Shown: one piece after another, positions 1 through 62,057 of the stretch | Numbering within the stretch: position 1 is the first letter of the stretch | How the letters are laid out: the number at the start of each line of letters is the position of its first letter | Origin: Thermoanaerobaculia bacterium | GTDB lineage: Bacteria; Acidobacteriota; Thermoanaerobaculia; Gp7-AA8 | Assembly (NCBI GenBank): GCA_017883205.1 | Contig: JADGNZ010000001.1 | Location: 1 to 64,000 of the forward strand | Direction of reading: 5' to 3' | Length of the DNA stretch: 64,000 bases | Notes under the pieces: generated by a model | The model's database searches: none | Told to the model about the DNA's origin: nothing | Seen by the model: the letters and a program-made list of their open reading frames with translations, nothing else | Made by a program: the position numbers and the translations under genes

Positions 1-96
1 TGAACAAGATCACCAACTGGAGAGCCGGATGCGGGAGATCCGCCCGTCCGGTTCGGAGGGAGGGGGAGACCTTCACTGGTCTCTCCCTACCCCTAT
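1..96 (+). mobile_element. Group II intron, 3' end (domains V and VI); cut by the window edge
   Basis: Positions 22-54 fold like catalytic domain V. The outer stem GAGCCGGA (22-29) pairs with TCCGGTTC (47-54), contains the AGC triad, and encloses a GCGG/CCGC stem with a small purine-rich loop. Positions 55-96 form a domain VI-like hairpin (GGGAGACC with GGTCTCTCCC), and the sequence ends in CCCCTAT, a typical bacterial intron 3' terminus. The reverse-transcriptase ORF and 5' part would lie left of the window. The intron ends only a few bases from a Rho-independent terminator, which fits the habit of class C introns of inserting beside terminator stems, although the terminator is read from the opposite strand. 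The exact 3' splice site is inferred. Confidence 0.75.
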
Positions 97-3586: not shown

Positions 3587-4345
3587 TCACGGCCGGAACG
3601 TGACCGAATTCACCGGCCCTTCCCAGATCGTGACAGCTCGCACGACAGCCCTCTCCTCGGCCACGGCGGCCCCGAGGGCGCTTGCAAACCATTGCGCGAT
3701 GTTCTCGGCAGACGGATTGACCTTGTCGAAGGGAGGAACATCGTTAATGCAACCGTAGTCGAGCGTCTTTGCCAGTGCCTCGAGCTTTCGACGGGCACTG
3801 ACGAAATCGACGGCAATCGCGTCAGCGTCGACTCCGCCGCCGGCCGCAGCCAGATCGGCTTCGACCATGTACGAGTGGCCATGAAGCGGCTCGGAAATCC
3901 CCCGGTATTCGCGAAGAAAGTGCGCGGCTTCGAATCGGGCGGATACGCGGATGGTGAAGGACGGGGGGTGGGGGGTGGGGGGTGGGGGGCGGGAGGTGAA
4001 GGCATCAGGCTTTTCGGACGGGGTGCGAGACTTGTCGGGCGGCACAGGAGATTGGGCCGAAGGGAGGTGAGAAGCGGTAGCTTTGTTTTTCTCCGACCCC
4101 CCACTCCCCACACCCGACTCCCCAGATTTCTCCGACTCCCGACTCCCGACTCGCGACCCCCCAAACACCCTAGCAATCATCTCCTCGCTCATCCCCAGTT
4201 CGCGGACTTCGTCGGGGTTCGACTGGGATCGCAGCAGATCCTCGGCACGCGCATCGTCCCAGCAATCGGACGGGCTCGAGCCTTCCGCTAACTCGATCAG
4301 GGTCAGCAGTGTTTTGCGCCGCTCGGCATCGTTCCTGGCGTCCAC
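3587..4345 (-). CDS. 6-pyruvoyl-tetrahydropterin synthase/QueD-family protein with a repeat-derived N-terminal fusion
   Basis: The C-terminal 125 residues are a PTPS/QueD fold, starting around FTIRVSARFEAAHFL. They carry zinc-binding histidines (EAAHF, LHGHSY) and the C-terminal IWEGP glutamate. Family enzymes make 6-carboxy- or 6-pyruvoyl-tetrahydropterin from dihydroneopterin triphosphate. Two catalytic positions differ from E. coli QueD: the Cys three residues before LHGH is Ser (SEPLHGH), and LDHH is LDYG. Activity is therefore doubtful, or the chemistry differs. Upstream in the same frame is a separate approximately 62-residue acidic segment (DARNDAERRKTLLTL...) joined by a Ser/Gly/Pro-rich linker encoded by the repeat at 3963-4163. 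The start is uncertain: GTG 4345 is chosen, and ATG 4375 would overlap the divergent gene's start codon. Confidence 0.75.
   Translation of the reverse strand: MDARNDAERRKTLLTLIELAEGSSPSDCWDDARAEDLLRSQSNPDEVRELGMSEEMIARVFGGSRVGSRESEKSGESGVGSGGSEKNKATASHLPSAQSPVPPDKSRTPSEKPDAFTSRPPPPTPHPPSFTIRVSARFEAAHFLREYRGISEPLHGHSYMVEADLAAAGGGVDADAIAVDFVSARRKLEALAKTLDYGCINDVPPFDKVNPSAENIAQWFASALGAAVAEERAVVRAVTIWEGPVNSVTFRP
3963..4163. repeat. Heptamer-armed inverted repeat (GGGGGGT / GGGAGTC type) inside a coding frame
   Basis: Left arm 3963-3994 is four tandem copies of a G-rich 7-mer. Right arm about 4094-4163 is CGACTCC/CCCCACT-type 7-mers. It lies in frame between the two halves of the PTPS-family gene and encodes the low-complexity linker. 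Confidence 0.75.
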
Positions 4346-16275: not shown

Positions 16276-16484
16276 GGGGGTCGGTGATCGGGAGTCGGGG
16301 GTCGGAGGAATCAGAGATCAGAGATCAGAGATCAGAGATCAGAGACTCAGTCTGGAGATCAGAGATCAGAGATCGGAGATTCAGAGATCAGAGGCTTGCT
16401 GGCGACCTTCCGGTTTCCTGATCTCTTGTCTCTGATCTCTGCTCTTTTGTCTTTGCTCCGACTCCCGACTCCCGACCCCCGCGT
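16276..16484. repeat. Nested heptamer-armed inverted repeat (outer GGGAGTC, inner AGATCAG)
   Basis: Outer arms of GGGAGTC/GGGGGTC 7-mers (about 16276-16305) pair with GACTCCC/GACCCCC 7-mers (about 16458-16484). Inside them, about ten tandem ATCAGAG 7-mers (16309-16403) face CTGATCT 7-mers (16418-16443). Two sequence classes are thus nested in one element. It ends 2 nt from the rlpA stop codon. Confidence 0.85.
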
Positions 16485-27159: not shown

Positions 27160-27234
27160 GAGGAATTGGTTAGCGGCAAAGCATTGAACGACTGATACTT
27201 ACGACTTCGTCGTTGGTGTGATCGTTACTGGAAG

Positions 27235-27632
27235 GATCACGACCTATCGGCGACAGATCGCGATCTATCCGGGATAGATCCGCATCTACCAAGCATGGAT
27301 CGCGATCTTCCAAGCATAGATCGCGATCTACCAAAGATAGATCCGCATCTAAAAAAAGAGATCGCGACCTCCCCGGGGGAGATCCGCATCTCCCCGAAAG
27401 AGATCGCGACCTCCCCGGGGGAGATCCGCATCTCCCCGAAAGAGATCGCGACCTCCCCGGGGGAGATCCGCAGCTCCCCGAAAGAGATCGCGACCTCCCC
27501 GGGGGAGGTCCGCATCTCCCCAAAAGAGATCGCGACCTCCCAGGGAGAGATCCGTATCTCCCAAAAAGAGATCGCGATCTACCAAAGGCAGATCGTGACC
27601 TGCCGGGCAGAGATCGAGACCTCGCCGATCCA
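27235..27632. repeat. Tandem repeat array, 21-bp period, about 19 units
   Basis: Units begin GATC at 27235, 27256, 27277, 27298, 27319, 27340, 27360, then every 21 bp to 27612. Two unit types alternate in the centre, GATCGCGACCTCCCC... and GATCCGCATCTCCCC..., making a 42-bp higher-order repeat; outer units are more diverged. Both strands stay open over much of the array. In the outer left units the plus strand reads DRDLPxx heptads, and a 1-bp deletion at 27359-27360 shifts the frame. No Shine-Dalgarno or clear start is seen. The 27160-27679 spacer holds nothing else recognisable. Confidence 0.9.
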
Positions 27633-27679: not shown

Positions 27680-27961
27680 GTGAATCAGCCTGACGGTGGC
27701 GGGGCACGGATCTATGTCGATGAGTTACAGAGTGCCGTCGATCGGACGATGAACCGCCGCAAGCCGCGCAAACCCGCCAACAACCCTCCCACCACACCAC
27801 CCTCAACAACTCCTCCCACCACTCCTCCCATGCAAAGCTTTATGGCCCCCTCTCTTGCAACGAAGGCTGCGGCGAAGGCGCAAATCGATCTGGATATCGA
27901 TCCTGATAGTGAAGAGATCCTCGATCTCCTTCAGGAAATCGCAACGGATCCGAAGAAGTAG
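27680..27961 (+). CDS. Small Pro/Thr-rich protein, unknown function
   Basis: 93 aa from GTG 27680, or 70 aa from ATG 27749 (MNRRKPRKPANNPP). A basic start is followed by a PPTTPPSTTPPTTPP linker and an acidic helical C-terminus (IDLDIDPDSEEILDLLQEIATDPKK). No family is recognised. A bidirectional terminator follows 15 nt after the stop, which supports a real transcription unit. The frame begins just past the 21-bp array, so the array could lie in its leader. Confidence 0.5.
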   Translation: MNQPDGGGARIYVDELQSAVDRTMNRRKPRKPANNPPTTPPSTTPPTTPPMQSFMAPSLATKAAAKAQIDLDIDPDSEEILDLLQEIATDPKK

Positions 27962-34494: not shown

Positions 34495-34683
34495 ATGGAG
34501 GGTGGGGAGTTGGGGGTGGGGTGTGGGAGGCCTGCAGTTGGTTCTCGATCGGAAGAGATCAGAGATCAGAAGATCAGAGATCAGCGCATGCGAGGTACGA
34601 GTGTCCCTGGTCTCTGATCGCTTGTCTCTGATCTCTGCTTCAATCGCTTCTCCCACCCCCGACACCCTACTCCCCACCCCCCA
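34495..34683. repeat. Nested heptamer-armed inverted repeat (outer G-rich, inner AGATCAG)
   Basis: Outer arms of GGGGAGT/GGGGTGT-like 7-mers (34495-34526) face CCCCGAC/ACTCCCC 7-mers (34650-34682). Inner arms of AGATCAG 7-mers (34556-34584) face CTGATCT/TCTCTGA 7-mers (34611-34640). The architecture is the same as at 16276-16484. It lies between the adaptor gene's start and the 34684 gene's stop. Confidence 0.85.
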
Positions 34684-44587: not shown

Positions 44588-45058
44588 GTGCATGCTGGAA
44601 ACTTTGTGGTCCAGACAAGTGAGGAACCCGAGAGCAAACGTCCCTTCTGTGTGCTCGTCGTCGATGACGATCCGAGCATCCGGCGGATGATCGTTGCGGC
44701 ACTCCGCCGCGACGGCTACGTCTTCCGCGAAGCACCCAACGGCAAAGAAGCGCTCGATCTGATGCGCAGCGAGCATCCCAACGTCGTCGTGCTCGACCTG
44801 ATGATGCCGGTCCTGTCCGGCTGGGACGTGCTCCAGGCGCGCGAGCTCGAGCCGGAGTTGAAAGAGATTCCGGTCATCATCATCAGCGCGAATCGGGCCC
44901 CCGAGGTGGCGACGGCGGTCGATAAGGGCATCTGCGCGTTTCTGCCGAAGCCGTTCGACATCGGGGCGCTCAGCGCACTCGTTCGAAGCTGCCTGACGCC
45001 CGGAAGCTCGACAAGCGTCCACGCGACGCCGATTGACGAAGCGGAAGCGCCGCGCTGA
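44588..45058 (+). CDS. Single-domain response regulator (CheY-like)
   Basis: 156 aa from GTG 44588 (GTG 44606 is an alternative). The receiver domain is complete: CVLVVDDDPSIRRM acidic pocket, VVVLDLMMPVLSGWD with the phospho-acceptor Asp, PVIIISA, and the conserved Lys in FLPKPFD. No output domain follows, so it would act by binding a partner protein. It is divergent from mnmA with a 46-bp gap. No adjacent histidine kinase is seen; the degenerate kinase at 60 kb and the GAF kinase at 13.6 kb are in the window but not linked. Confidence 0.9.
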   Translation: MHAGNFVVQTSEEPESKRPFCVLVVDDDPSIRRMIVAALRRDGYVFREAPNGKEALDLMRSEHPNVVVLDLMMPVLSGWDVLQARELEPELKEIPVIIISANRAPEVATAVDKGICAFLPKPFDIGALSALVRSCLTPGSSTSVHATPIDEAEAPR

Positions 45059-45123
45059 GCCGCCCAGCCGTGGCTCGCTTGCTTCGGCTAGCTCCTTCCT
45101 GTCACGGCATTTGACTACCCAAC

Positions 45124-45291
45124 GTTGAGGACGATCGCGATAACGTTGAGGACGATTTCCTCAGCGTTGAGTAAAATCTTCCGAATGTTGAGGACATTTT
45201 CCTCAAAGTTGAGGACATTCTCCTTAACGTCAGCGACGATTTCGAGGACGTCGACATCGAGCCATCAAGGAATGAGGATGTCGCAGTCCAT
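45124..45291. repeat. Tandem array, exact 21-bp period (GTTGAGGACGATTTCCTCA type)
   Basis: Unit starts fall at 45124, 45145, 45166, 45187, 45208, 45229 and 45250, all exactly 21 bp apart, with drift toward the right end. In the plus-strand frame beginning at 45124 it reads VEDDRDN VEDDFLS VE-stop-NLPN VEDIFLK VEDILLN VSDDFED VDIEPSR, an acidic heptad pattern broken by one TAA. There is no start codon upstream in that frame (a TGA lies at 45112). Confidence 0.85.
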
Positions 45292-45313: not shown

Positions 45314-45607
45314 TGACGACGCCTGCATCCAGGATGTCGATTCCAAATAAGAAATGACGACGATGACATCCATGAAGACGATCGCGAACAACTGATGTCA
45401 TCGATGACATCCAGGATGCCGATTTCACTTAAGAAATGTCATCGATGACATCCAGGATGCCGATTTTGGTTAAAAAATGTCATCGATGACTTCCAACATG
45501 CAAATTTTGCTTAAAAGATGCCATCGATGACTAAAAATATGTCATCGATGACTTCCAGGATGCAAAATTTGCTCAAAAAATGTCATCGATGACCTCCGGG
45601 GATGACG
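45314..45607. repeat. Tandem array with 41-bp period carrying palindrome TGTCATCGATGACA
   Basis: Units begin at 45314, 45355, 45396, 45437, 45478, 45519, 45540 and 45581 (spacings 41, 41, 41, 41, 41, 21 and 41). The first two are degenerate. From 45396 on, the core GTCATCGATGAC is perfect in five of six units, and the 14-bp palindrome is perfect in two. AT-rich linkers (such as TTTTGGTTAAAAAA) separate the palindromes. All frames are closed by stops, so it is not coding. It looks like an array of protein-binding sites on one face of the helix. Confidence 0.9.
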
Positions 45608-45793
45608 ATCTCACATCCAAAATGACGACGTTGACATCGAAAATGTCCCCGTCTCCACGATCGGTGGTACCTCCTCAGAACGCCGCCAAGCCTTCCTCTT
45701 CATTGAAGGAGCGCGCCGGACCAATCCAGGCCTGCCGGTAGCTACGATTCGAGCCGCGCGATTCTTCACAACCTCTGAGCCACGAGCGCCTGC

Positions 45794-45807: not shown

Positions 45808-46314
45808 ATGTCCTGGGTCTGCATCATCATGGGAAGCGATTCGGATGCCGAGGTGATGTCGCAGGCGTGTGCGGCCCTCGATGACGCCGGCGTCCCCTAC
45901 GAAATGAGCGTTGCCTCGGCGCACCGGAGTCCGGAGCGGACGAAAGAGGTCATCACGGCCGCCGAGCGCGATGGCGCCGCGGTGTTCATCGCCGGCGCTG
46001 GAATGGCCGCCCACCTCCCGGGAGTGGTCGCGTCGTTCACGACCAAGCCGGTGATCGGTGTCCCGCTCGTGGGCGGCGCGCTGCAGGGGCTCGACGCGCT
46101 GCTTGCGGTGGTACAGATGCCGCCGGGCATCCCCGTGGCGACGGTCGCCGTCGGCGGCGCGCGGAACGCAGGCATCCTCGCGGCGCAGATCATCGCGCTG
46201 ACGGATGACGCGTTGGCTTCGCGGCTGCGTGAGAAGCGGGTGTCGATGGCGGAGGAAGTGGTTAGGAAGTCTGCGAAGGTTGAGAAGTCGACGAGATCGC
46301 TGAAAAAGGCATAA
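45808..46314 (+). CDS. purE: N5-carboxyaminoimidazole ribonucleotide mutase
   Basis: 168 aa, class I PurE size. It converts N5-CAIR to CAIR in purine synthesis. IIMGSDSDAEVM is the phosphate loop, SAHRSPERT carries the catalytic His, and IAGAGMAAHLPGVVAS and GVPLVGGALQGLDALL are conserved. No purK is next to it; purB is at 17.5 kb, so purine genes are scattered. A hairpin repeat starts at the stop codon. Confidence 0.96.
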   Translation: MSWVCIIMGSDSDAEVMSQACAALDDAGVPYEMSVASAHRSPERTKEVITAAERDGAAVFIAGAGMAAHLPGVVASFTTKPVIGVPLVGGALQGLDALLAVVQMPPGIPVATVAVGGARNAGILAAQIIALTDDALASRLREKRVSMAEEVVRKSAKVEKSTRSLKKA

Positions 46315-46371
46315 CCACAGAGACACAGAGGACAGAGAGAAAACCTCTGTGATCTCTGTGTCTCTGTGGTT
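46313..46371. repeat. Inverted repeat with short tandem arms (CACAGAG type)
   Basis: Left arm AACCACAGAGACACAGAGGA (46313-46332) and right arm from CTCTGTGATCTC to CTCTGTGGTT (46345-46371) make a long stem with an approximately 10-nt loop. It begins within the purE stop codon and ends 7 nt before the CDF transporter start. Confidence 0.85.
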
Positions 46372-46378
46372 CAAACAC

Positions 46379-48357: not shown

Positions 48358-48397
48358 GTTCGGAGCCTCCCGGGGTGGGTGAAGCTTACCGGATTGT

Positions 48398-48512
48398 GGG
48401 GGGTGGGGAGTGGGGTGTGGGGTGTGGTAGAAAAAGGCGGCGGTTGGCTTCGTGCGTAGACAGCGGTTCAGCTCCCACCCCCCACTCCCTACTCCCCACA
48501 ACCCACCCCACG
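48398..48512. repeat. Heptamer-armed inverted repeat (GGGGTGT/GGGGAGT type)
   Basis: Left arm 48398-48429 is tandem GGGGTGT-like 7-mers and right arm 48475-48512 is ACTCCCC/CCCCACT 7-mers. It fills the divergent spacer between mglA and the aldolase gene, leaving promoters close to both starts. Confidence 0.8.
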
Positions 48513-52622: not shown

Positions 52623-53837
52623 GTGTTCCTTAAGCGCCGGCTGGACGTTCCTGAAGAAACACCACTCCCCGTCGCGGTTGCTCTTCTTTTCTACGTCGGT
52701 CACCTTTTCTGCGCCGGCTGGGTAGCCTCGTCGGAAGTCTTCGCGTTTGCCACGACAGTGACGATCGGCTGGTGTCTCTGGCGGCGTCTCCTCAAGCCGT
52801 CGTTTCACATTCTCTACGTACCGCTCGCGCTGTACGGGTTGGCGTCTACGGTTTCTGCGCTGGTCGCGGTGCGCGAAATCCACTCGTTCGGGGAGTCAGC
52901 GTTGTGGGGAAAGATGCTGCTCTTTCCGGCGGCGCTGATTCTGTTCCGCAACGTCCCGCGAGCGCGCGCCACGGCGCTGCGGATGGTCCTCATTTTCGGT
53001 GCGATGGCGTCAGCCATGGGCCTGGCGCAATACGTCACTGCAGGCGGCTTTCGCGACCTCGAGCATCGCATCACCGGTCCGACCGCGCACGTGATGACGT
53101 TGTCCGGACTGCTGCTGCCGGTTGCGCTGATGTTCATCGTGCTCTGGATTTACGAAGCCGGGAATCTCTGGCTGCTCGCCGGCGCGGCCGTCACGAACTT
53201 GGCGCTCCTCATCACCTTCACGCGCAGTGCCTGGCTCGGATGGATCGTCGGCATCGCCGTGCTGCTGATCCTGAAGTGGCCCAAGGCGCTGGCCTGGGCC
53301 GTCCCGGTGGCGATCATCGCGATCAGTTTCGCGCCGCTGCCGCTGTTCAGCAGGGTGATCTCGAGCTTCGACACGCGGCAGTCGTCGAACCTCGACAGGA
53401 TTCGTATGGCCGAGGCCGGCGTTGAGATCATCAAAGACTATCCGGTCTTCGGCGTGGGGCCTGCGAATGTCAAGGAGATCTACCCCCTTTACCGGAAGCA
53501 CGATGCGCCCCGCTTCCGTATCCCGCACCTGCACAACAACGTGATCCAGCTTCTCGCGGAACGCGGTGTGCTGGCCCTTCTGGCGTATCTCTTTCTCCAG
53601 GGACTCTTCCTGCGAGAGTGTGCGCGCGCCTGGGGAGGGCCGGCAACGAAATACGCGGAGATCGGCGTGGTGGTCGTCGCCAGTCTCGGAGCAGCCGGGA
53701 TGTTCGAGTTCAACTTCGGCGACACCGAGGTCTTCTGGATCATGCTCGATCTCTTCGCGATTATTACCGCCTTCATCGAGCGGCCTGAGCAGTCGAATGA
53801 ACCGGTCGCCGCCCTTGTTCCGCCGGACGGTCCGTAA
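52623..53837 (+). CDS. O-antigen ligase / Wzy-like membrane protein
   Basis: 404 aa from GTG 52623 with about ten to eleven membrane helices. The Wzy_C domain has the periplasmic loop with conserved Arg/His: FGVGPANVKEIYPLYRKHDAPRF and HLHNNVIQLLAERG. Enzymes of this family join O-polysaccharide to lipid A-core or polymerise repeat units. The last residues (SNEPVAALVPPDGP) are within the tandem duplication that continues into the sigma gene. Confidence 0.87.
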   Translation: MFLKRRLDVPEETPLPVAVALLFYVGHLFCAGWVASSEVFAFATTVTIGWCLWRRLLKPSFHILYVPLALYGLASTVSALVAVREIHSFGESALWGKMLLFPAALILFRNVPRARATALRMVLIFGAMASAMGLAQYVTAGGFRDLEHRITGPTAHVMTLSGLLLPVALMFIVLWIYEAGNLWLLAGAAVTNLALLITFTRSAWLGWIVGIAVLLILKWPKALAWAVPVAIIAISFAPLPLFSRVISSFDTRQSSNLDRIRMAEAGVEIIKDYPVFGVGPANVKEIYPLYRKHDAPRFRIPHLHNNVIQLLAERGVLALLAYLFLQGLFLRECARAWGGPATKYAEIGVVVVASLGAAGMFEFNFGDTEVFWIMLDLFAIITAFIERPEQSNEPVAALVPPDGP

Positions 53838-53984
53838 CCTTTCCGCGATGGCTACGTCGAAGAAGAGAGGACGGGAAATGAAACACCTGAGCGAACCGGT
53901 CCCCGCCGTTGTTCCGGACCGTCAGTAACCTTTCCGCGATGGCTACGTCCAAGAAGAGAGACCGGGATATGAAACACCTGAGCG
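53799..53984 (+). repeat. Two-copy tandem duplication (about 92 bp) spanning ligase 3' end and sigma 5' end, with a 26-aa chimeric ORF
   Basis: The first copy starts at GAACCGGTCGCCGCC (about 53799) and the second at GAACCGGTCCCCGCC (about 53893); each contains TAACCTTTCCGCGATGGCTA and ATGAAACACCTGAGC. The copies differ by a 3-nt deletion and a few substitutions. The first copy creates an ORF at 53848-53928 encoding MATSKKRGREMKHLSE followed by PVPAVVPDRQ, that is, the sigma factor's first residues joined to a copy of the ligase tail. Confidence 0.92.
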
Positions 53985-54556
53985 ATGAGGAGTTGATGAG
54001 CATCGTTCAGGCGGGTGATTTCGCTCCCGCTTCAGAGCTTTACGACCGTTATTCAGGTCGAATCTACAACTTCGCATACCGCTTCCTGAGAAACAGCGAA
54101 TCGGGCGAAGACGTGACACAGGAAGTTTTTGCCAGGATGTTCAAGAACGCAAATCAGTTTCGTGGTGGCGCCAAGTTCTCGACGTGGCTTTTCGCGATCG
54201 CGCGCAACCAATGCCGCGATTACCTGAGAAAACCGGAGAACAAAGTGAAGAAGGAAGGGGAGGATGTGCTGATCACCCTTCAGGCGCCGGCCGAGCTCTC
54301 GCCGTATCGGAATCTCGAACGGCAGGAAGACAAAAAAATGAACGAGGAAATGATCGAGGAAGCGCTGATGGTGCTATCGCCGGATCAACGCGAGGCCATT
54401 GTGCTCTCGCGTTATCACGGATTGACGTATGGGGAGATCGCGCAAATCTCGGGAGTTTCCGAGAATGCGATCAAAACCAGGGTCTTTCGCTCCCTGGAAT
54501 TGCTCAAGCAAGCACTCGTCGCACGTGGAGGTGACCAATGTCTGAATGTCGTGTGA
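53969..54556 (+). CDS. ECF RNA polymerase sigma factor
   Basis: 195 aa from ATG 53969 (GAGAG 8 nt upstream as Shine-Dalgarno), or 205 aa from ATG 53939. MKHLSDEELMSIVQAGDFAPASELYDRYSGRIYNFAYRFL is sigma2, with DVTQEVFARMF and FSTWLFAIARNQCRDYLRK. Sigma4 is LSPDQREAIVLSRYHGLTYGEIAQISGVSENAIKTRVFRSLELL. It overlaps its anti-sigma partner by 19 nt, so the two are translationally linked. The duplicated leader may alter its translation. Confidence 0.92.
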   Translation: MKHLSDEELMSIVQAGDFAPASELYDRYSGRIYNFAYRFLRNSESGEDVTQEVFARMFKNANQFRGGAKFSTWLFAIARNQCRDYLRKPENKVKKEGEDVLITLQAPAELSPYRNLERQEDKKMNEEMIEEALMVLSPDQREAIVLSRYHGLTYGEIAQISGVSENAIKTRVFRSLELLKQALVARGGDQCLNVV

Positions 54557-61359: not shown

Positions 61360-62057
61360 TCGTGAGTCACACGCAATTGGGCGTTGCCGTGGGGTCAGGC
61401 CCTCGTCTTCTTCTCCTGAATACGTGCGAATAACTGAAAAGGCATCGTGACGGCAGTAGTCGGCCCTCGCAAGTAACTGCTTTTTAATGGTTTGCAGGTC
61501 GGCCACGAGGGAAGGTCTGACCCTCACGCCTTCCGGGCATCGTCGAAGGGGAGCGTCGCCAATGTCAAACGGCGCGCCGCCGAAGTGAAACGGAGCGTCA
61601 CCAATGTCAAACGGTGCGCCGCCGAAGTGAAACGGTGCGCCGCCAATGTTAAACGGTGCGCCGCTGAAGTGAAACGGAGCGCCGCTGAAGTGAAACGGAG
61701 CGCCGCCAATGTCAAACGGTGCGTCTCCGAAGTGAAACGGAGCGCCGCCAATGTCGAACGGAGCCCCGCCGAAGTGAAACGGAGCGTCGCCAATGTCAAA
61801 CGGAGCGTCTCCGAAGTGAAACGGAGCGTCGCCAATGTCAAACGGAGCGTCTCCGAAGTGAAACGGAGCGCCGCCAATGTCAAACGGAGCGTCTCCGAAG
61901 TGAAACGGAGCGCCGCCAATGTCAAACGGAGCGTCTCTGATACCCAAACGGAGTGCCTCCGATTCGAAACGGAGCGTTTCCAATATCGAGGGGAGCGTCC
62001 TCAATAAGGAAGAGCAGGCGTCACCGTGCAGGTGCAGCTTGAGCCGACCCGCGTTTG
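61360..62057. other. Gene-free region containing the third 21-bp repeat array
   Basis: Beyond the array at 61543-62004 I see nothing in this stretch. Positions 61360-61540 hold a GGTCAGGCCCTCGTC / GACCCTCAC pair but no gene, promoter or hairpin I can support. Confidence 0.6.
61543..62004. repeat. Tandem array, 21-bp period, about 22 units (GTGAAACGGAGCGTCGCCAAT type)
   Basis: Exact 21-bp units alternate GTGAAACGGAGCGyCGCCAAT and GTCAAACGGAGCGTCTCCGAA, giving a 42-bp higher-order repeat in the right half. One frame (61564 onward) reads heptads such as VKRSVAN VKRSVSE without a stop to 62007. Another reads xETERRQ CQTERLR and matches the diverged right end (FETERFQ YRGERPQ) after a 1-bp shift near 61941. 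The minus strand is also open (FDIGDAP FHFGDAP). A three-frame-open, near-identical repeat is weak evidence for coding; no start signal or Shine-Dalgarno is seen. Confidence 0.9.

Follow-up and report, generated by a model that had tools for sequence, protein, structure and literature searches.

The window analysed here, that is, the whole 64,000-nucleotide stretch presented above, comes from a soil bacterium of the phylum Acidobacteriota and carries an array of palindromes set at helical spacing between a response regulator gene and purE. The question raised by this locus is what such an array is for and how it came to lie between these genes. In the preliminary description, it was taken for an array bound by a dimeric DNA-binding protein, such as a partition site, nucleoid anchor or operator. 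The features of the window considered below are listed in Table 1.

Structure of the array

The eight-unit array described previously was borne out by the unit starts (45314, 45355, 45396, 45437, 45478, 45519, 45540 and 45581), which give steps of 41, 41, 41, 41, 41, 21 and 41 bp, and by a self-identity of 0.69 at shift 41, as compared with 0.26 at shift 42 and 0.23 at shift 40. Relative to TGTCATCGATGACA, the units in order have 7, 3, 0, 0, 1, 2, 1 and 1 mismatches; the first is a unit by position only, and the second is degenerate. The array is non-coding and intergenic, its GC content is 42% versus 62% for the whole window and, as had been stated, all frames are closed by stops (3-7 per frame in six of six frames). 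The neighbouring 21-bp array, also reported earlier, is real and degenerate.

A CRISPR array was ruled out, as the linkers are themselves repeated and are not unique spacers, and no cas genes were found among the immediate neighbours, which are mnmA, the response regulator gene, purE and a cation efflux gene. Between purE and the efflux gene, a hairpin CCACAGAGACACAGAGG...CCTCTGTGTCTCTGTGG is located at positions 46315-46372 of the window, and one resembling it is found near L008:4810-4870.

Table 1. Features of the window (positions are those of the window; strand is given as. where none applies)
Feature	Position	Strand	Remarks
Second phased array of the class, GAGATCGCGACCTCCCC..	27226..27628	.	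21/42 bp
Truncated B-superfamily gene right after the second array	27680..27961	+	HMM E=8.6e-19, model positions 135-197
Response regulator receiver-domain protein, left neighbour	44639..45058	+	Pfam PF00072; ends ~60 bp before the repeat block
Degenerate 21-bp array beside the main array	45120..45243	.	TRF
Leader common to other copies, GTCGACATCGAGCCATCAAGGAATGA and flanks	45236..45286	+	Belongs to the dispersed repeat
Main phased array	45314..45607	.	8 units, palindrome TGTCATCGATGACA, steps of 41 and one of 21
21-bp step of the main array	45513..45560	.	GACTAAAAATATGTCATCGATG nearly invariant in 7/7 genomic copies (paralog alignment)
Tail of the dispersed repeat, ATGACGACGTTGACATCGAAAATG...	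45608..45653	+	In common with the G002:C24 module array
purE (AIR carboxylase), right neighbour	45808..46314	+	Pfam PF00731
Third phased array of the class	61528..61977	.	42/21 bp; no B gene found adjoining

Copies of the array at other loci and at orthologous sites

The palindrome clusters anticipated elsewhere in the genome were found. The 6.37-Mb genome contains 33 palindromic occurrences of the pattern GTCATCGATGAC, and none of the reversed control pattern. A pattern scan of genome contigs returned mostly chance and coding matches. The array cores cluster at seven loci, namely the window, C23, C28, C31, C32, C35 and C102. The dispersed paralogs are 79-86% identical to the window copy, and the step pattern (41..41-21-41) is closely similar across the seven copies; the shared spacing was thus inherited and not independently selected. 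Homology between some of these copies extends over almost 600 bp, and a related leader and array are located at the ends of contigs C76 and C77.

Among the seven paralogous arrays, palindrome columns vary less than linker columns (0.078 versus 0.186, p=4e-4), which upholds the earlier statement that the palindromes are the better conserved part. The C/G positions are almost invariant at the palindrome sites and conservation is roughly dyad-symmetric, with absolute values biased upwards by the choice of sites with ≤3 mismatches. Substitutions affect one side of the palindrome, and compensating pairs are absent from the variable positions 2/11, which argues that the palindromes are read as DNA rather than RNA.

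In both congeners, G001 and G002, mnmA, the response regulator gene, purE and the cation efflux gene follow one another as in the window, and no array is present between the regulator gene and purE at the orthologous locus of either. The window array is therefore not a conserved site. The C31 copy is also missing at the orthologous place in both congeners, and an array in L163 (15760-16084) is absent from the orthologous place in G002, where the family of this array is present at several other loci. Arrays occupy non-orthologous sites across the congeners. The preliminary description had held that absence from close relatives would speak against its interpretation, and this is largely what was found at the window and C31 sites. 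Dozens of dispersed copies of another repeat, which is 60 bp long and located at L163:9906-9964, are found in G001 and G002.

A class of arrays with a period near 21 bp

In the shift spectrum of the genome sample, 3794 starts of scanning windows fall at shift 21, 375 at shift 22 and 162 at shift 20, and 21 bp and its multiples dominate the period spectrum of 460 kb of genome G000. These 460 kb contain 24 arrays of roughly 100-620 bp each, nearly all outside predicted genes; the calls are threshold-dependent and the gene caller was simple, two of the 24 partly overlap gene calls, and one is a 14-bp repeat. Within single arrays, steps of 20, 21 and 22 bp occur together. The unit sequences are unlike between arrays, and many of the arrays group into families.

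Palindromes (dyads) cover 0.37 of the arrays in G000 versus 0.07 for mirror repeats (ordinary sequence, 18%), and 0.59 versus 0.04 in G002 (ordinary sequence, 14%); about a quarter of the arrays have little or no dyad. The mirror-repeat control was relied on over a permuted folding control because the latter is biased when step length varies. Helical spacing and dyad symmetry, as described for the window array, are real and are general to the whole class.

Many arrays are present in G002 and some in G009. None was found in a 152-kb random sample of G001 or in 282 kb of five further relatives. Arrays lean towards convergent gene pairs (9/25 versus 64/380, p=0.03). Given that the assemblies are fragmented and many contigs end inside arrays (the ends of L151 and L152, and the starts of L237, L238 and L241), counts of arrays and of the modules described below are underestimates.

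Short 7-bp/14-bp tandem repeats (ATCAGAG, GGGGGGT and others), found in the window at 3963-3998, 16310-16393, 34554-34584 and 48395-48427, are scattered genome-wide and form a class separate from the 21-bp arrays. The window also includes a 91-bp tandem duplication (53799-53985), with two copies that are 88% alike.

Genes associated with the arrays

A tail motif common to unrelated arrays resembled ECF promoters of downstream genes, and led to a gene, designated A, that encodes a 225-residue protein directly after one array in G002. Among the eight genomes searched, homologues of A were found only in G000, G002 and G009. Every full-length homologue has an array just upstream, and in all A loci the next gene is a second gene, designated B. 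At two loci in G009 (L327:5312-6637 and L328:5279-6604), a fusion of A and B encodes a single protein of 441 residues. The module thus defined consists of an array of roughly 300 bp with dyad units spaced at about two helical turns, a gap of ~70-180 bp that is regular where A follows the array and amounts to a promoter region of about 100 bp, an optional gene A, and gene B. By our reading, many of the gaps between array and gene contain an ECF-like promoter of the TGTGACCTTTT..CGTCTAA type. The B superfamily is broader than the A-linked genes, and includes other members that lie directly after arrays without A.

By our tally, an array is located upstream of ~40 of the 45 B genes in G000, G002, G009, G001 and G016, a figure that includes about eight B genes found through their arrays. 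As at most 20 candidates per genome were scored, the totals for each genome are at-least values. An array within 1 kb upstream was found for 18 of 301 ordinary genes (6%). The best test of this near-obligate pairing of arrays with B is G001, where arrays accompany four of the six B genes despite the array-free random sample. Two B genes in G001 and one in G016 have no array. Array-free B genes in these two genomes (L378:900-1560 and L377:900-1560) share a conserved upstream region of another kind, and possibly represent the ancestral, array-free copy.

As judged by dN/dS values of about 0.33 at larger distances and 0.4-0.6 in recent pairs, B is a real protein under purifying selection. Of 396 genomes of the phylum searched with a narrow model of B, matches were confined to G000, G002 and G009; of 149 genomes of the class searched with a broad model, they were confined to these three, G001 and G016. 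Hence, among the genomes searched, B is restricted to five, all of one family. Searches of phages, plasmids and viral contigs gave no B, and the protein had no match in Pfam, NCBIfam or PADLOC, nor in the PDB by sequence. A had no Pfam match and is recognised by no family library. The structural model of A is a confident helical bundle with a helical core mostly at pLDDT >90, and that of B is a helical domain of lower confidence with a disordered tail; structure searches with both models gave nothing significant, and neither includes a recognisable DNA-binding fold. No description of the arrays or the module was found in the open-access literature. At L368:8202-9020, a gene encoding a helix-turn-helix-like N-terminus adjoins an array, and related ORFs are found near two arrays of L362.

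All 30 module arrays examined have periods close to 21 bp or to a multiple of it (21, 42, 43, 41, 63 and 64), and palindromes cover 0.45 of these arrays versus 0.11 for mirror repeats. Two B proteins that are 91% identical are associated with unrelated arrays, which argues against simple sequence-specific recognition by B. Taken with the constant period, this suggests that geometry is kept rather than sequence, or that arrays are exchanged between modules. Two other close pairs do share arrays, and the overall correlation between B similarity and array similarity is weak (Mantel p=0.0005).

Probable orphan arrays and decaying modules

The family of the window array matches the array of a module in G002 (C24), with E values down to 7e-35 for the paralogs and of 2e-16 for the window copy. 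Furthermore, the C28 and C31 copies run past the array into the promoter and first codons of gene A of the same module. The B gene that follows the second array of the window has lost its first two thirds, whereas full-length relatives (238 aa) are found at L157 and L170. This array and the truncated gene together form a decaying module. Other orphan arrays show matches to those of modules C17 and C45. Together, these matches, remnants and the truncated gene indicate that modules appear to decay to arrays. In an unbiased sample, a B gene was found downstream of seven of 36 arrays.

The window array therefore looks like an orphaned module array, the partner gene of which is gone, and is better read as the remnant of a multicopy module of array and gene than as a fixed site. 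Neither a transposase nor terminal repeats or target duplications were found for arrays or modules, and the region of module C50 has little flanking match in the congeners.

Interpretation of the window array

We propose, with a probability of about 0.5, that the array at the purE locus is an orphaned copy of the array that precedes the genes of a lineage-specific multicopy module, left by spread and subsequent gene loss, with units that are perhaps read by a protein. Modules, or parts of them, would have spread copies through the chromosome, and loss of the genes by deletion would have left arrays behind in intergenic space. We infer that the units are bound by protein. The least certain part of the proposal is how this would occur. 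A dimeric protein (A, B or a partner) may read the units as duplex DNA from one face of the helix, such that spacing and dyad symmetry would outweigh the exact letters, and in an intact module, the protein on the array might control or mark the module's own promoter.

That the arrays are instead a neutral satellite, grown by slippage and segmental duplication with no protein reader and with B genes that merely co-travel, is somewhat unlikely. Such a satellite would be consistent with the species-specific sites, the varied units, the dyad-free arrays and a weak lean away from gene starts, but not readily with a period pinned near 21 bp across unrelated sequences, dyads in strong excess over mirror repeats, or the location of arrays 5' of B genes in four to five genomes. 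The idea originally put forward, that a dimeric host protein binds the array as its dedicated operator, partition site or nucleoid anchor, is improbable given that the orthologous locus is empty in both congeners, that the seven copies are scattered in varied contexts, and that many other arrays in the genome have unrelated units and an equal period. The 14-bp palindrome, its helical spacing and a dyad-symmetric conservation that is higher in palindromes than in linkers among the paralogs do agree with it. Thus, the features that pointed to a binding array (helical spacing, dyads and palindrome conservation) stand, but a fixed site serving the neighbouring genes is not supported, the array being missing at that locus in both congeners.

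A transcribed tandem-hairpin RNA that acts in 3' regions or as a regulatory RNA would suit the lean of arrays to convergent gene pairs and the predicted folding above permuted controls in many arrays, a control that is biased where steps vary. We consider it highly improbable, as the palindromes are loop-free and show no compensating changes, no Rfam family was found at its gathering score, and RNA hairpins do not need a 21-bp rule. The chance that the arrays are REP/BIME elements moved by a RAYT transposase is very slim: clustered and dispersed extragenic palindromes, several families per genome and an association with a gene are features of both, but the array-associated B is not PF01797, only two of five RAYT loci in G000 held any array, and Y1 transposases number 14 in G010, where no arrays were seen, and one in G009, where arrays are present. 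Genes for heptad-repeat proteins, for which 21 bp would be seven codons, were rejected and retain hardly any credibility. Some arrays, including one in G009, are open in one frame, but steps of 20, 22, 41 and 43 bp break the frame, stops occur in all frames of the window array, and substitutions are not concentrated in one codon position.

Beyond the window array itself, we suggest more tentatively that the B superfamily, often with A, makes, reads or spreads arrays that are set by helical period and dyads and not by sequence, and would constitute a new kind of genetic element, with the orphan arrays as a by-product or a target network. If this is true, a protein family absent from the searched databases is tied to arrays that keep their period and not their sequence. 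Geometry would then guide either the recognition of DNA or the synthesis of arrays, and the mobile repeats would form a counterpart of REP/RAYT that uses other proteins. The proposal also opens to testing the puzzle of why phased, dyad-rich satellites fill some bacterial genomes and not those of sister species.

Comparison with known systems

Iterons of plasmid origins are direct repeats about two helical turns apart, and an initiator encoded by an adjacent gene binds them on one face. The arrays share such direct repeats at about two helical turns, but are present in many chromosomal copies with unrelated units, and no iteron-type replication initiator was found beside them, A having no Pfam match and B no match in Pfam or NCBIfam and no plasmid record. 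Partition centromeres consist of repeated operators upstream of a two-gene operon, and the array can double as an operator. The module similarly has an array before a two-gene operon, which could double as an operator. However, there are many module copies per genome, and no match to a ParA-like ATPase, a ParM/TubZ-type NTPase or a ParB-like protein was found in the A-B operon.

REP/BIME elements with RAYT (Nunvar 2010, PMC2817692; REPINs, PMC3116915) are extragenic palindromes in many copies, clustered at regular spacing, with gene-linked, species-specific families. The arrays resemble them as dispersed, extragenic, palindromic, species-specific repeats in many copies, with families tied to a gene beside some copies and a spread that is likely due to something linked to the associated gene. 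We read the spread of the window array as somewhat REP/RAYT-like, without that transposase. However, the units here are head-to-tail at ~21 bp over 150-600 bp, the module gene is not a Y1 transposase (PF01797), the array is located 5' of the gene and before its promoter, and even modules whose proteins are 91% identical differ in array sequence.

The tandem repeats of Borgs (PMC9879509) form many recent, independently formed regions per genome and are rare in relatives. Their units are perfect, of varied lengths and A-rich, and about half are in genes. Many recent tandem-repeat regions of independent origin in one genome that are rare in relatives are likewise seen here, but the period is fixed near 21 bp, and the units are imperfect, dyad-rich, intergenic and tied to a protein family.
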